A stretch of 64,000 bases of DNA, from the NCBI RefSeq assembly GCF_001995095.2, contig NZ_MTSD02000003.1, positions 124,001 to 188,000 of the forward strand, given 5' to 3'. Shown here in pieces: positions 14,345 to 19,397 of the stretch. Source of the stretch: Oceanospirillum linum (GTDB lineage: Bacteria; Pseudomonadota; Gammaproteobacteria; Pseudomonadales; Halomonadaceae). The first letter of the stretch is position 1. The number at the start of each line of letters is the position of its first letter. The notes under the pieces are model-generated. The model had not been told where the DNA came from. It did not search any database and saw only the letters and a program-made list of their open reading frames with translations. The position numbers and the translations under genes were made by a program.

Positions 14345-15109
14345 ATGGTATTTGCAGTTTATGAACAAGGGATGCGTATCCACACACCACGGAAAACACT
14401 TCTCGGCCGCCGGGGAATTGATGCACTCCAGGAAACGCAAAATACCCGGCGACTGGCGGATACTGACAGTGACTCAAGCCATCTGGAGCGGATGGCTGAG
14501 CGCTCTTTTGAACAGGTTCAGAATGCCGCGGTAAAACGTCGTCTTGAGAATCTTCCGGAGCAGGAGCAGGACGAGCAAAACCCGGAGCAGGCGCAACAGG
14601 ACAAATCAGATAGTCCGGTCGATATCTCTAAAAAAGCGCTCAAAGCATACTCCTCTACGGAGCAAAGCCATACTCATGGTGAGCGCCCTGCCGTCAGTGC
14701 AGCCATGATTATGTCGACGCCTATCGTATCTGCAGAGTTCGATCAGAATCTGCAGCAGGGTTGGAATATGATGCAGCAACATAAAGTACAGCACCTTCTG
14801 CTGCTTAACCGGAAAGGCGCCTTAATGGGGCTGGTATCGGATAAAGATATTCTGAAGGTCACGTCCGGTGTCGGTGATATTGAGCTTGAAGGGCGCACCG
14901 CAGCTGAAGTCATGCTGGGCGACCTGATCAGCCGCAAACTACTGACAGTGAATCCTGATGCCAGCTTACTGGATATTGCACATGCCATGCTGGAGCAAAA
15001 CGTCTCCGCTATGCCAGTCGTCACAGACAATGATGAGCTTAAAGGCATCATCACAAGAACAGACCTGCTGCAGGCGATGATCAATGGACAATTAGAAACC
15101 TGGTACTAA
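14345..15109 (+). CDS. CBS domain protein with acidic N-terminal linker
   Basis: A 254-residue protein. The first part (about residues 1-110) is hydrophilic and rich in Gln, Glu and Asp and is probably largely disordered. Two CBS motifs follow, at about 122-180 (SAAMIMSTPIVSAEF to GLVSDKDILKV) and 195-250 (LLTVNPDASLLDIA to GIITRTDLLQAM). A CBS pair usually binds an adenine nucleotide. A good GGAGAG site precedes the ATG. It stands alone, and its partner is unknown. Confidence 0.8.
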   Translation: MVFAVYEQGMRIHTPRKTLLGRRGIDALQETQNTRRLADTDSDSSHLERMAERSFEQVQNAAVKRRLENLPEQEQDEQNPEQAQQDKSDSPVDISKKALKAYSSTEQSHTHGERPAVSAAMIMSTPIVSAEFDQNLQQGWNMMQQHKVQHLLLLNRKGALMGLVSDKDILKVTSGVGDIELEGRTAAEVMLGDLISRKLLTVNPDASLLDIAHAMLEQNVSAMPVVTDNDELKGIITRTDLLQAMINGQLETWY

Positions 15110-15165
15110 ACCAGGGCAACCTTGTGGCCTATTGTGAAAAACAGGTTTCACAGGTCGCATTAGTG

Positions 15166-15210
15166 AAAAAAATAACCCTCAATATCGGGTATCAGATTAT
15201 TGAGGGTTAT
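15166..15210 (-). terminator. Terminator of the ProQ-domain gene
   Basis: A 13-bp stem of ATAACCCTCAATA (15172-15184) with TATTGAGGGTTAT (15198-15210) is followed on the minus strand by a T run (15166-15172). It closes the minus-strand gene that ends at 15245 and also separates it from the convergent CBS gene. Confidence 0.85.
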
Positions 15211-15244
15211 AGCTTTAACAGGAATTGTTAAACGTTAACTCAGG

Positions 15245-16174
15245 CTATTTCTTAGTCAAGAGCTGAGACAGCTTGCTGTTAAGCCGTTTTTTCTCTTCTT
15301 TTTCCCGAACTGCTTTCTCTTTCTGCAAACGCTGTTGGCGGATGCCCTCCAACTGCTCTTTTGCATGGCCAGCTTCTTCTTCCGTCACAAAACCGGCATT
15401 ATTTCCCGACAGATCCATCCGTACAGCACCGGTTTTCAACACCCTCAGATAGCGGGGACTTCTGACATACCCGGCAAGAGCACGGCGAATCCAGTGATCA
15501 GGAAGAGCCTCATGCTCTGCCAGATCCTCATGGATGCCGATCTTAAGTGGCTGAATAGTAACCGTAGAAAAAGCCTTCGGATAACGCTCACTCCAATGTG
15601 CCAAAATAGCTTTGGCATCAAATTTTTCCATAACAGGCTCATGTGGTGCTTCATCCTGATCTGCAGTCTTCTCCGACAGCCATTCAGTAGGATCAAGAGT
15701 CTCACGAATTAACGCACGAACGGCATCAGAGCTTTCCAGCAAAGAACCATCCAGCAGATCTTTCAGGCGCTGCTGCAAACTGCCCAATTCCTGGCTAAGG
15801 GAGAGGTGATCTGTTTTCAGGGCGTCAAGCTCCGACACCAAGCGTTCATTGTCTGCTTCCAGTTCAGAAACACGCTCTGAGCCTTCATCCACACTCTGTT
15901 CTGCTGATGCTGGCTCTTCTGCCGCAGTCACATCAGCCCGAAGAGCAGCTTCCTGAGCAACACTCAGTTCTGCTTTGGTATTCTCAAGGGTGCGCTCCAG
16001 ATAGTTACAGTGCTCCTGTAAACCCTGGTTTCTAACCTTAAGCTCACTGCAGAGCTGATTTAACTCTGTCATTCTCTTATGGTGACTTCTCAGAGTCTGA
16101 AAACTATTATCCGCACGCTCATTCAGTTCATTGAACAGGTGATCTAATGTATTGGCTGATGAATCACTTGGCAT
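15245..16174 (-). CDS. Coiled-coil protein with C-terminal ProQ/FinO RNA-chaperone domain
   Basis: This 309-residue protein begins with a long coiled coil (about residues 10-145). It ends with a ProQ/FinO-like domain (about 164-268), recognised by KAFSTVTIQPLKIGIHEDL, WIRRALAGYVRSPRYLRVL and VRMDLSGNNAGFVTEEEA. A very basic Lys/Arg/Glu tail follows. ProQ-domain proteins bind structured small RNAs and 3' ends. The coiled coil suggests self-association or a partner protein. The ATG at 16174 is preferred over one at 16195 because AAGGATAGGG lies just upstream of it. It lies next to folA but has its own terminator. RNA binding is inferred from the family. Confidence 0.75.
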   Translation of the reverse strand: MPSDSSANTLDHLFNELNERADNSFQTLRSHHKRMTELNQLCSELKVRNQGLQEHCNYLERTLENTKAELSVAQEAALRADVTAAEEPASAEQSVDEGSERVSELEADNERLVSELDALKTDHLSLSQELGSLQQRLKDLLDGSLLESSDAVRALIRETLDPTEWLSEKTADQDEAPHEPVMEKFDAKAILAHWSERYPKAFSTVTIQPLKIGIHEDLAEHEALPDHWIRRALAGYVRSPRYLRVLKTGAVRMDLSGNNAGFVTEEEAGHAKEQLEGIRQQRLQKEKAVREKEEKKRLNSKLSQLLTKK

Positions 16175-16229
16175 GGGCAATACCCTATCCTTCATAATCT
16201 ACGGCGATCTTACCGGCAGTTACGCCATG

Positions 16230-16754
16230 TTACCCTGCTGGCTGATAAATATAAAAGCCATAATCATACTCACCGGTGCCTTCCTTCTTGCACTCTTCGC
16301 AGGAGACCTCCTGCCACTGGCTTTCATCATACTCAGGGAAAAAAGCATCTCCCTCAACGTCTGCGTGAACCTTAGTAATATAAAGTTTATTGGCATACGG
16401 CAGCGCCTGTTTATAGATCTCGGCCCCTCCCATAACAACAATCTCTTCACCACCATCAATCAGACATTGCTGATCTGCACGCTCCAGAGCATCCTCCAGC
16501 GAATGTACCACCACACAACCGGTTGCAGTGAAACTGGTATCACGGGTCATAATAATATTAGTACGTCCCGGCAGCGGACGCCCTATCGACTCGTGGGTTT
16601 TACGTCCCATAATCACAGGCTTCGCCCAAGTGCACTGTTTAAAGAATTGCAGATCCTTTGGTAAATACCAGGGCAGTTTATTATCAACACCGATAACACG
16701 ATTTTCGGCCATCGCCCAGATCAGGGCAACCGGGGCATCCAATTCTAAAGACAT
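16230..16754 (-). CDS. folA: Dihydrofolate reductase
   Basis: A 174-residue DHFR that reduces dihydrofolate to tetrahydrofolate with NADPH. Visible motifs are IWAMAENRVIGVDNKLPW at the folate site, the PKDLQFFKQCTWAKPVIMGRKTHESIGRPLPGR-type core read over residues 32-64, and VVMGGAEIYKQALP near the cofactor loop. It lies immediately downstream of thyA on the same strand. The two consecutive enzymes form the thymidylate cycle, because ThyA produces the dihydrofolate that FolA recycles. It looks complete. Confidence 0.96.
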   Translation of the reverse strand: MSLELDAPVALIWAMAENRVIGVDNKLPWYLPKDLQFFKQCTWAKPVIMGRKTHESIGRPLPGRTNIIMTRDTSFTATGCVVVHSLEDALERADQQCLIDGGEEIVVMGGAEIYKQALPYANKLYITKVHADVEGDAFFPEYDESQWQEVSCEECKKEGTGEYDYGFYIYQPAG

Positions 16755-16813
16755 AACTTGATCTCACTCACGCACAGGCCGGTCAGAACGCAGGCTCTCG
16801 CACCGGCAAAGAA

Positions 16814-17665
16814 TTAAACCGAAAAAGGGTACTGAATCGCTTCATGGTACTGGTAGCCCGCCACATCAAAGTCATCCAGAGTAACCCAGGTTTCCAGATC
16901 TTCCAGGCTCTTAATTTCAGGATTAATCTTCAACTGCGGTGATGGGAAAGGCTCTCGCTTTAACTGAACATCACGCATCAGTTCCAGCTGATCTTCATAA
17001 ATATGGGCGTTAACAATTTTGTGGTACGCCCTGCCCGGCTTGTGACCAGTGATCTGCGCCATTAGCGCCAGCAGGGTGAATACCTGTACCTGATTAAAGT
17101 TCAGACCTAAAGGAACATCACAGCTGCGCTGGGTACTGTTCAGATACAGCTTACCACCCAGTAACGAGAAATGATGGCTGTACATGCAGGGGCGTAAACA
17201 GCCCATCTCGAACTCGCCGGGATTATAAAAATTCAGAATCTCACCCCGGTCATCCAGTCCACGGCTCAGATCATCCACAATCTTTTTCAGCTGATCCAGA
17301 TAAGTGCCATCGGGTTTCGCCCAACTCCGCCCCTGCACACCATACACGCGGCCCATATCGTCCTCTCCGTTACGGTGAGGGTTGTTCAGCCAGCTGGGGT
17401 TTTCATTGGCATTAGCATTCCAGGTGTTGCAGCCGATAGCACGGAACTCTGCAGCACTACTGTAACCCCGCAGATAGCCCAAAAGCTCAGCAATAGCGGC
17501 CTTCCAAAAGCTTTTTCGGGTGGTAATCAGCGGGAACTGATTATTTTCCACATCATATTCCAGGTCGGCATTGATAACCGTCAGGCAGCGCTTACCGGTA
17601 CGTTCGTTATCAACCCAGATACCTTCTTCGACAATTCGACGGCTGAGATCAAGATACTGCTGCAT
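16814..17665 (-). CDS. thyA: Thymidylate synthase, long Vibrio/Shewanella-type variant
   Basis: A 283-residue thymidylate synthase that methylates dUMP to dTMP using methylene-tetrahydrofolate. It has the Arg loop ([16 protein letters not shown]), [11 protein letters not shown], the catalytic Cys in [11 protein letters not shown], the dUMP-binding [15 protein letters not shown], and a C-terminus ending in YPFSV. It is about 20 residues longer than the 264-residue E. coli form, and the active-site flank CMYSHH replaces the usual sequence. From memory this matches the ThyA of Vibrio and Shewanella. It is followed by folA, and lgt lies upstream on the same strand. Confidence 0.95.
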
Positions 17666-17783
17666 GCGGGTTCCAAAGATTCAGAAATAAAAAGGTTGGC
17701 AGTTTACGCTACCAATAGGCCAATTGCAGCCAGAAGCGTCTAATAAATACAGCTCTGCTGAACCGCAGTATTAAGTTTTCTGA

Positions 17784-18578
17784 TCAGTTTTTAACCTGAT
17801 CAAAGCACGCCTGCTTTCTGCCCCAGGCGACCAGCACCAGACCAGCCAGAATCATCGGCAATGACAACAGCTGCCCCATGGTAAGCCAGTCAAAAGCCAC
17901 AAAACCGAGATGAGCATCCGGCTGACGGACAAACTCCATCATAAAGCGGAAAATTCCATAGCAGATAAGGAAAGCACCGGACAATACCCCACGGGAAGGC
18001 AGTTTACGGTCCAAAAGATTCAGAATGACAAACAGAGCCACGCCTTCCAGTGCAAACTGGTAGAGCTGTGAAGGGTGGCGGGCCAGGTTATCCACATGGG
18101 GGAACACCATACCCCATGGCAGATCTGTTGGGCGACCCCAGAGTTCACCGCCAATAAAGTTGCCCACACGCCCGGCGCCAAGGCCAATAGGTACCAGCGG
18201 GGCGATAAAGTCGGTTACCGTCAGCATACTGGCCTGCATGCGGCGGGCAAAAATAATCATCGCAACAATCACGCCCAGCAGACCGCCATGGAAGGACATT
18301 CCTCCTTCCCATACCTGAAATAACCAAAGCGGATCGGCCAGAAAACGGTCAAAGTTATAGAAGAAGACATAGCCAAACCGACCACCGAGTACCACCCCCA
18401 TCGCACCGTAGAAGATCAGGTCACCGACATCATCACGACTCCACCCCAGACGGTGCGCTCGCTGCTTAGCCAACCACCAGGCTCCGGCAAAGCCAATCAG
18501 GTACATCAGGCCGTACCAGTGAATTTTCAGGGGGCCTATCGCCACCAGTACAGGGTCAATCTGTGGGTATTGCAGCAT
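17784..18578 (-). CDS. lgt: Prolipoprotein diacylglyceryl transferase
   Basis: A 264-residue inner membrane enzyme with seven hydrophobic helices. It transfers diacylglycerol from phosphatidylglycerol to the lipobox cysteine of prolipoproteins, the first step of lipoprotein maturation. The family signature [21 protein letters not shown] occurs near residues 139-159, and [12 protein letters not shown] near 169-180. It sits upstream of thyA, the same order as in Pseudomonas, with a TauE-type exporter gene ahead of it. Confidence 0.95.
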
Positions 18579-18608
18579 GAATAAACCTTAACGTCTGCTT
18601 TGAATAAG

Positions 18609-19397
18609 CTAGCTCAGTAAAAAACGGATGCCGATCAGCAACAGCAATACCGCAAAGATGCGTTTCAGGGTATCAGAAGGCAGGCTATGGGCCAGTTTTG
18701 CGCCGACCTTGGCAAAGATAACACTGGTGGAAACAATCCCGATAAATGCAGGCCAGTACACATAGCCCGTCGCATATTCCGGTAACAGAGGATGCCCCCA
18801 ACCTTCTTCGATATTTGCCAGAGCACCCACGATGGCAATGGGTAAACCCACCGCAGCAGATGTCGCGACGGCGGTCTGCATCTTAACATTGCACCAGCTT
18901 AAAAAAGGCACCGTCAAAGAGCCTCCGCCAATACCAAAAATAGCGGAAGCCCAGCCAATAAAACCGCCAGCCCCTATAAGACCGGGCCGCCCGGGAATGG
19001 TTCGCCCAGGTTTAGGTTTCAGGCCAAATCCCATCTGAACAGCAATTAAAAGCGCAAAAACACCAATTACTTTCTGCAGTAATTCACCGCTCATCATACC
19101 AGCGGTTTTAACCCCCAGTACCGTACCAAAAACGATGCCAATAGCGATCCCGGTGAACCAGTCCCAACGCACAGCACCTTTCCCGTGATGCGCTTTAACA
19201 GAACTGACAGACGTCACAACAATTGTCGCCAGAGATGTGCCCACTGCGAGATGAGTCAGCACTTCAGGAGAGATCCCCTGAGCAGCAAAGCTGAAAACCA
19301 ACACAGGTACAATGACCAAGCCACCACCTATGCCAAAAAGCCCTGCCAATGTTCCGGCAACCCCCCCTAAAGCAACATACATTAAAAGCGTTACCAT
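18609..19397 (-). CDS. TauE/SafE family sulfite exporter-like permease
   Basis: A 262-residue membrane protein with about eight helices and two similar halves. The halves are marked by GLFGIGGGLVIVPVLVF near the N-terminus and AIFGIGGGSLTVPFLSW in the middle, the signature of the TSUP (TauE/SafE, DUF81) family. Members export or import sulfite, sulfonates or other small anions. The position next to lgt recalls the Pseudomonas gene order. The substrate is unknown. Confidence 0.85.
   Translation of the reverse strand: MVTLLMYVALGGVAGTLAGLFGIGGGLVIVPVLVFSFAAQGISPEVLTHLAVGTSLATIVVTSVSSVKAHHGKGAVRWDWFTGIAIGIVFGTVLGVKTAGMMSGELLQKVIGVFALLIAVQMGFGLKPKPGRTIPGRPGLIGAGGFIGWASAIFGIGGGSLTVPFLSWCNVKMQTAVATSAAVGLPIAIVGALANIEEGWGHPLLPEYATGYVYWPAFIGIVSTSVIFAKVGAKLAHSLPSDTLKRIFAVLLLLIGIRFLLS

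Follow-up and report, generated by a model that had tools for sequence, protein, structure and literature searches.

Proteins of the FinO/ProQ class are, as a generalisation and not a definition, small (14-27 kDa), basic and essentially monomeric, and action as a small basic monomer is unusual among bacterial regulatory RNA-binding proteins (PMC9977716). Figure 4B of the same paper shows uncharacterised complex members. The central FinO domain typically carries N- or C-terminal extensions (PMC8545117), and because they are called typical there, an N-terminal extension of this domain is not new as such. In Escherichia coli ProQ, Arg58, Tyr70 and Arg80 are essential for RNA binding (PMC10578477). 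In RocC, a Gly stabilises the 3'-end turn, and the helix cap Ser70-Lys71-Ser72 touches hairpin phosphates; the Ser-Lys-(Ser/Thr) cap is a well-conserved trait, though not what defines the Pfam family (PMC9674577). Among the titles and opening lines of abstracts retrieved for ProQ/FinO together with coiled coil, oligomer or dimer, Halomonas, Acinetobacter or C-terminal motif, no coil-bearing ProQ was found. In the available text of PMC11472050, ProQ and FinO occur in the reference list only.

The window is the whole stretch of 64,000 nucleotides of Oceanospirillum linum DNA that was analysed. Translation of 15245-16174 on the minus strand gave an open reading frame of 309 amino acids, with its ATG at 16174 and its stop codon ending at 15245, exactly where an earlier note on this DNA had placed it. 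A second in-frame ATG is present upstream at 16195. The purine-rich stretch AAGGATAGGG, which was read by eye, lies at a normal distance from the ATG at 16174 only, and not from that at 16195.

15245..16174, minus strand: coiled-coil ProQ/FinO protein of 309 aa, 35.0 kDa, pI 5.3 (open reading frame, translation, computed mass and pI)
16183..16192, minus strand: purine-rich stretch AAGGATAGGG, a likely ribosome-binding site, 8 nt before the ATG (read by eye)

From its N-terminus, the protein starts with two coiled coils of heptad repeats, at residues 10-66 and 102-141, which are accompanied by acidic linkers; a ProQ/FinO domain (residues 187-287), a basic tail and a short end motif follow. According to the computed charge, the N-terminal part is strongly acidic and the remainder is basic. 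With 35.0 kDa and a pI of 5.3, the protein falls outside the generalisation "small (14-27 kDa) and basic", and its layout departs from the published picture of small, basic and monomeric FinO/ProQ proteins.

The domain assignment was supported by several sequence searches. PF04352 matched residues 187-287 with an E-value of 2.4e-24 and 85.8 bits (cut-off 27). Among proteins of solved structure, ProQ (5nb9, E 3.3e-14), RocC (about 2e-8), FinO (4.2e-6) and NMB1681 were matched by sequence, and a 12-member profile matched the solved relatives more strongly (5nb9, 2.7e-23). The ProQ equivalog model NF003434 scored 82.4 bits, below its cut-off of 127, which places the protein outside canonical ProQ, and the plasmid FinO model NF010317 likewise scored below its cut-off (39.4 versus 136 bits).

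15314..15616, minus strand: ProQ/FinO RNA-binding domain, residues 187-287 (PF04352, a whole-genome search that gave the same place, and solved relatives)

These results agree with the earlier note, which had located ProQ motifs in the C-terminal third, followed by a basic tail; the tail is visible in the sequence. The same note had read the protein as E. coli ProQ in inverted order. A Tudor-like family was absent among the nine families listed for the window protein, and the coil precedes the domain. Because no Tudor part was found, the "inverted ProQ" reading was dropped. What holds up is a ProQ/FinO domain that follows a long coiled coil, an arrangement kept throughout the sampled family; the label "inverted" is wrong. 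The fold of FinO/ProQ proteins is a bowl of five helices and a two-stranded sheet. In a full-length AlphaFold model built from two sequences, residues 160-265 had a pLDDT below 50. A domain-only run, also with two sequences, reached a mean pLDDT of 53.6 and showed a beta hairpin at positions 70-72 and 79-81 of the domain model. Because these shallow two-sequence models gave low confidence for the domain, the predicted FinO fold is supported by homology and not by a structure model.

The first half of the protein had been described as a single long heptad-rich coil. Heptad coils are indeed present, but they are two, with an acidic linker between them.

15977..16147, minus strand: coiled coil 1, residues 10-66, with Asn49 at core position a (heptad test, LxxxNxxL at residue 45, model helix)
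15881..15949, minus strand: acidic low-complexity linker, residues 76-98 (sequence; residues 81-100 contain 7 D/E and no K/R)
15752..15871, minus strand: coiled coil 2, residues 102-141, with Asn109 at core position a (heptad test, LxxxNxxL at residue 105, model helix)

In residues 10-66, hydrophobic residues occupy 10/17 heptad core positions compared to 4/40 positions elsewhere (Fisher p 2.5e-4), and in residues 102-141 the corresponding numbers are 10/12 and 3/28 (p 1.8e-5); both registers were picked by eye. The heptad score used for comparison with shuffled sequences leaves out prolines, which had misled an earlier version. Within residues 1-172, 0/1000 shuffles equalled the best heptad stretch of 42 residues (2 did so for 35 residues and 4 for 28 residues). 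Coil 1 alone was moderately above the shuffles, 25/1000 of which reached it. In the two-sequence AlphaFold model, helices spanned residues 7-83 and 88-160, with block-mean pLDDT values of 90-94 at their cores; the acidic linker 76-98 was drawn mostly as helix, with lower confidence. Comparison to the nearest relative (G004) gave dN/dS values of 0.19 for coil 1, 0.35 for coil 2, 0.04 for the domain and 0.10 for the tail, rough values that are useful as a ranking only, because dS was above 1 throughout and undefined for linker 2. In this ranking, the domain is under the strongest constraint, and the coils evolve faster.

To describe the host's family, we used 48 distinct proteins, which came from the best-scoring genomes and three weaker ones, and a later census of 101 genomes made to remove this bias. 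The window protein is the sole PF04352 protein of its genome, which is 98.5% complete and also contains one Hfq match. Exactly one PF04352 protein was found in each of the 101 sampled family genomes, representing 24 genera. In all 101, the domain is C-terminal, with fewer residues after it than before it; the census frames run from stop to stop, and N-terminal lengths taken from them are upper bounds. A 28-residue coil signal was reached by at most 5/100 shuffles in 96 genomes, and by 6, 8, 10, 11 and 14 in the other five. The pattern LxxxNxxL was present in 96/101 genomes and missing from 5/101. Since this layout recurs across the 101 sampled family genomes, the coil-bearing layout is not a one-off fusion. 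In the set of distinct proteins, a 35-residue coil signal was detected in 44/48; three of the others were at 7 to 11/100 shuffles, and one had no proline-free stretch of 35 residues. A pattern scan of genome contigs additionally revealed a relative in O. maris, the only one found by scanning, with 53% identity in the best segment. This protein (L061, 5001-6026) has a 17-residue insertion inside the ProQ domain, in the loop directly before the helix cap.

A domain tree was calculated from 82 proteins (of 100 rows, 14 family rows were left out as near-duplicates and 4 rows as short or truncated). With 123 columns and some long rows, it placed the family's 34 proteins on one side of a single branch with a support of 95/98. 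The gene looks vertically inherited in the host's family.

LxxxNxxL was found in 45 of the 48 distinct family proteins, whereas 2.2 were expected from shuffling, an expectation that overstates the significance because this motif, like the C-terminal motif described below, was chosen after viewing the sequences and because the sequences are related. Leu-xxx-Asn-xx-Leu with an Asn in the core is typical of parallel dimers, as in the GCN4 zipper. The coil signature seems to argue against extending the "essentially monomeric" generalisation to this protein, and an oligomeric RNA binder is plausible, because both the coil and the RNA-pocket residues (see below) support it. By a little more than an even chance, we favour a coil-mediated dimer in which two FinO domains would grip RNA 3' ends, the protein acting as the chromosomal, vertically inherited, single RNA chaperone of the family. 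The two N-terminal coiled coils, each with LxxxNxxL, would most likely join two copies alongside each other, and the mostly acidic linkers would present the two FinO domains. Against this stands that a long helix can also remain monomeric or attach to a partner protein.

Such partner binding would be the role of the helices if a single FinO domain bound RNA and the helices served to tether it to another protein or machine, such as the degradosome, the ribosome or the envelope, instead of to a second copy. The variable length of the N-terminal part would suit a tether: it ranged from 52 to 266 residues in the 48 distinct proteins when counted from the first ATG (the scripts used the first ATG, or else GTG or TTG, as the start codon, and these lengths are rough). 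The faster evolution of the coils would fit as well, as would the weak matches of the window protein to generic coil families, all below their own cut-offs. The core Asn in 45/48 proteins is more typical of self-pairing zippers, and we consider a tethering role unlikely.

Acidity offers another view of the N-terminal part, which could simply maintain the solubility of a basic RNA binder in a marine or halophilic cell, with no specific part in oligomerisation. The genus is Oceanospirillum, and this part is net negative in 46 of the 47 distinct family proteins with at least 60 N-terminal residues; the sole exception (L053) probably includes residues ahead of its true start. However, acidity alone leaves the heptad order and the core Asn unexplained, and outside the family, too, an acidic extension accompanies a coil (in L085 and L086 of family f27, see below). 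Because of the unexplained heptad order, halophile acidity was rejected as the only explanation, and a salt-adaptation or spacer role is in our view quite improbable.

Next to the gene, the following features were recognised.

16230..16754, minus strand: folA (dihydrofolate reductase), upstream neighbour (same order in 20/20 regions; name recognised from sequence)
16814..17665, minus strand: thyA, conserved neighbour (20/20 regions; name recognised from sequence)
17784..18578, minus strand: lgt, conserved neighbour (20/20 regions; name recognised from sequence)
15172..15210, minus strand: strong hairpin with U run downstream of the gene, a likely intrinsic terminator (15160-15246 folded at -21 kcal/mol, z -4.29)

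The order lgt, thyA, folA and coil-ProQ gene was kept in 20/20 wider regions from 20 genomes. In the census, 100/101 genomes had folA no more than 2.5 kb upstream, on the strand of the coil-ProQ gene, and in the remaining one the available stretch ended 1455 bases upstream. The conservation of synteny argues for a chromosomal gene. None of the conserved neighbours indicates a partner to which the helices could dock, which also speaks against a tether. The coil-ProQ gene begins 55 bases past the end of folA, and we infer co-transcription of the two. A promoter scan of 15050-18700 gave no match on the minus strand, and three matches overall compared to 3.7 by chance. A terminator scan gave nine sites where 3.4 were expected; it missed the hairpin at 15172-15210 because the loop of this hairpin exceeds the limit of the scan. 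Two of the nine, at 17748-17767 and 17696-17715, lie on the minus strand in the gap between lgt and thyA, and given this chance level they may or may not be real. Since they separate lgt from thyA, the transcription unit may begin at thyA rather than at lgt. The thyA gene of the window is 82-96% identical to those of L087-L090, while the thyA at the same place in a member of the genus (L091) and in other genera shows approximately 29-35% identity; this looks like a replacement of thyA in place.

We then compared the residues that contact RNA. In the alignment, Gly37 of E. coli ProQ corresponds to the Gly of the 3'-end turn of RocC, and the equivalents of Gly37, Arg58, Tyr70 and Arg80 are all present in the window protein. 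Among the 101 family genomes, they were found in 100, 99, 101 and 101, respectively. By contrast, the window protein has Pro-Asp-His at the place of the usual Ser-Lys-(Ser/Thr) cap.

15485..15505, minus strand: altered helix cap LPDHWIR, residues 224-230 (LSKTQLR in E. coli ProQ; alignment and 101-genome census)

Cap residues were counted back from Arg58, assuming no gap in those five residues, because an alignment with the E. coli protein as the only outside row had gapped the cap. Counted this way, the place of Lys54 is basic in 0/101 family genomes and Glu or Asp in 78/101, and the position after it holds Lys or Arg in 95/101. Among 50 proteins from outside the family (52 minus the truncated L076 and L132), 32 have a basic residue at the Lys54 place and none has an acidic one, and 12 have a basic residue one position further on; 18 of the 50 thus likewise have no basic residue at the Lys54 place. 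None of the 22 proteins inspected from families f6, f37, f27, f8 and f21 has an acidic residue there.

FinO/ProQ proteins bind hairpins that end in a free 3'-OH tail. For the favoured dimer, these residues suggest that each FinO domain would hold an RNA that ends in a terminator, gripping its 3'-OH tail in the Tyr/Arg pocket. Because the cap that touches the hairpin in RocC is altered here, with Lys replaced by Asp or Glu in most members and a basic residue one place on, the hairpin contact would be expected to be weaker or differently placed. Affinity may be regained by pairing the domains, which may also place two RNA 3' ends next to each other. In a more specific version, each domain of the dimer would bury the 3'-OH of a different transcript, one an sRNA and the other an mRNA, the charge-reversed cap would let the tail outweigh the hairpin, and the linkers or the C-terminal motif would control release or partner docking. 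We regard this version, in all its detail, as rather unlikely; were it true, a bacterial family would have swapped the monomeric ProQ mode for a dimeric one. Throughout, we infer dimerisation, RNA binding, matchmaking and the roles of the linkers and of the C-terminal motif.

Alternatively, the altered cap could mark the specificity of a narrow repressor of the FinO or RocC kind with one RNA partner, which would be compatible with a dimer. The cap departs from that of the 50 outside proteins, and FinO has an N-terminal helix that limits its RNA surface (PMC9977716). On the other hand, Rfam gave no match at the gathering level in the window, a search in which an undescribed RNA would not show; moreover, the protein is the only one with PF04352 per sampled family genome, and no whole-protein copy was found on mobile DNA in plasmid, phage and viral searches. 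A single-target repressor is possible, but the balance tips against it. Still another reading of the acidic residue at the Lys place in 78/101 genomes is that the domain has lost RNA binding and that the protein now serves as a structural coil protein. As the domain is the most constrained part (dN/dS 0.04) and the pocket residues are nearly invariant, this appears highly improbable. The tether, the salt adaptation and the single-target repressor are not all exclusive of the dimer reading.

Beyond the host's family, PF04352 matches were found in 42/194 genomes drawn from the order, 27/274 from the class and 99/398 from the phylum, draws that overlap and include family members. Two of the class genomes (G360 and G484) have four matches each, compared to one per sampled genome of the host's family. 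Of 23 non-family proteins from the order and class draws whose domain is preceded by at least 35 residues, four (L078, L084, L085 and L086) showed a coil signal at no more than 4/200 shuffles, two (L068 and L069) were borderline with 10 and 15/200, and the other 17 showed no coil signal or had no proline-free window. In 34 of 49 further proteins, the domain is preceded by fewer than 30 residues; 29 of these are of the canonical type with a long tail and have at most 19. Among the remaining 15, a coil was detected in two (L184 and L185, family f27), one was negative, and 12 had no proline-free window. In this sample, coil-FinO proteins predicted from sequence are thus found in three families of one order.

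The coil-FinO proteins of f27 and of part of f37, which belong to the same order, resemble the window protein in having an N-terminal coil, a linker, the FinO domain and a C-terminal KLxxL (L085, L086, L184, L185, L078 and L084). They differ in that their coil is shorter and, for L078, L084, L085 and L086, in that no folA was found within approximately 1.5 kb on either side and the Lys54 place is not acidic. In L085 and L086, the N-terminal part is strongly acidic as well. Our guess is that f27 is Acinetobacter-like. In all, no folA match was found in approximately 1.5 kb on each side of the FinO gene at 23 loci of the order (L062-L086 minus the family members L077 and L080). Pseudomonas aeruginosa belongs to the same order as the host; four relatives from f21, which would be the Pseudomonas family, lack the C-terminal motif (L062-L065).

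Mobile DNA was searched as well. On plasmids, 37 records matched, 0/37 of which cover 80% of the query, and the 30 listed cover 26-36% of it, in the domain region. No relatives were found in phage records. Pattern scans of viral contigs confirmed no relative among 18 stretches (domain alignment) and 13 stretches (E. coli ProQ), using short patterns that distant viral relatives could escape.

The C-terminal motif was followed in the same protein sets.

15260..15283, minus strand: C-terminal motif LNSKLSQL, residues 298-305 ([LMIV]xx[KR][LIM]xxL in the last 30 aa)

This pattern was found in the last 30 residues in 100/101 family genomes, in 48/48 distinct family proteins (0.48 expected) and in 19/52 others (0.41 expected), and within the family it is 0 to 71 residues apart from the domain model. 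In one of the 19 outside carriers (L135), it is not at the very end. The other carriers (L066-L075, L078, L081, L084-L086, L113, L114 and L120) include proteins with no or a short N-terminal part. Since it ends ProQ proteins of this kind, the motif is older than the coil or independent of it. Looser versions, for example EKLxxLxxKF, end L171, L178 and L179.

The coil version, conserved with one copy in each of 101 genomes, offers a natural experiment on whether oligomerisation can take over from Tudor-like or disordered extensions when RNAs are paired. Its rebuilt helix cap also makes it possible to weigh the hairpin contact directly against the 3'-end pocket. Like the window protein, E. coli ProQ is chromosomal and has a FinO domain with the same pocket residues. 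In contrast to the window protein, its domain is N-terminal, with a linker and then a Tudor-like domain behind it (PMC11247311), it has no coil, and its gene is located between prc and msrC and not after folA. Plasmid FinO shares an N-terminal extension before the FinO domain, but it is encoded on plasmids and has a narrow target, and the available description mentions no long heptad coil (PMC9977716). In Legionella RocC, the 3'-nucleotide pocket is shared, with Tyr87, Arg97 and Gly52 having kept equivalents in the window protein; RocC differs in its unstructured C-terminal extension and in its Ser70-Lys71-Ser72 cap, where the window protein has Pro-Asp-His (PMC9674577). The P. aeruginosa protein PA2582 (ProQ-Pae) also combines a FinO domain with a short N-terminal helix, but its N-terminal extension is 31 aa long, and no long coil appears in the available description (PMC11247311). 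While these known relatives act singly, a ProQ on a coiled-coil stalk may act in pairs.
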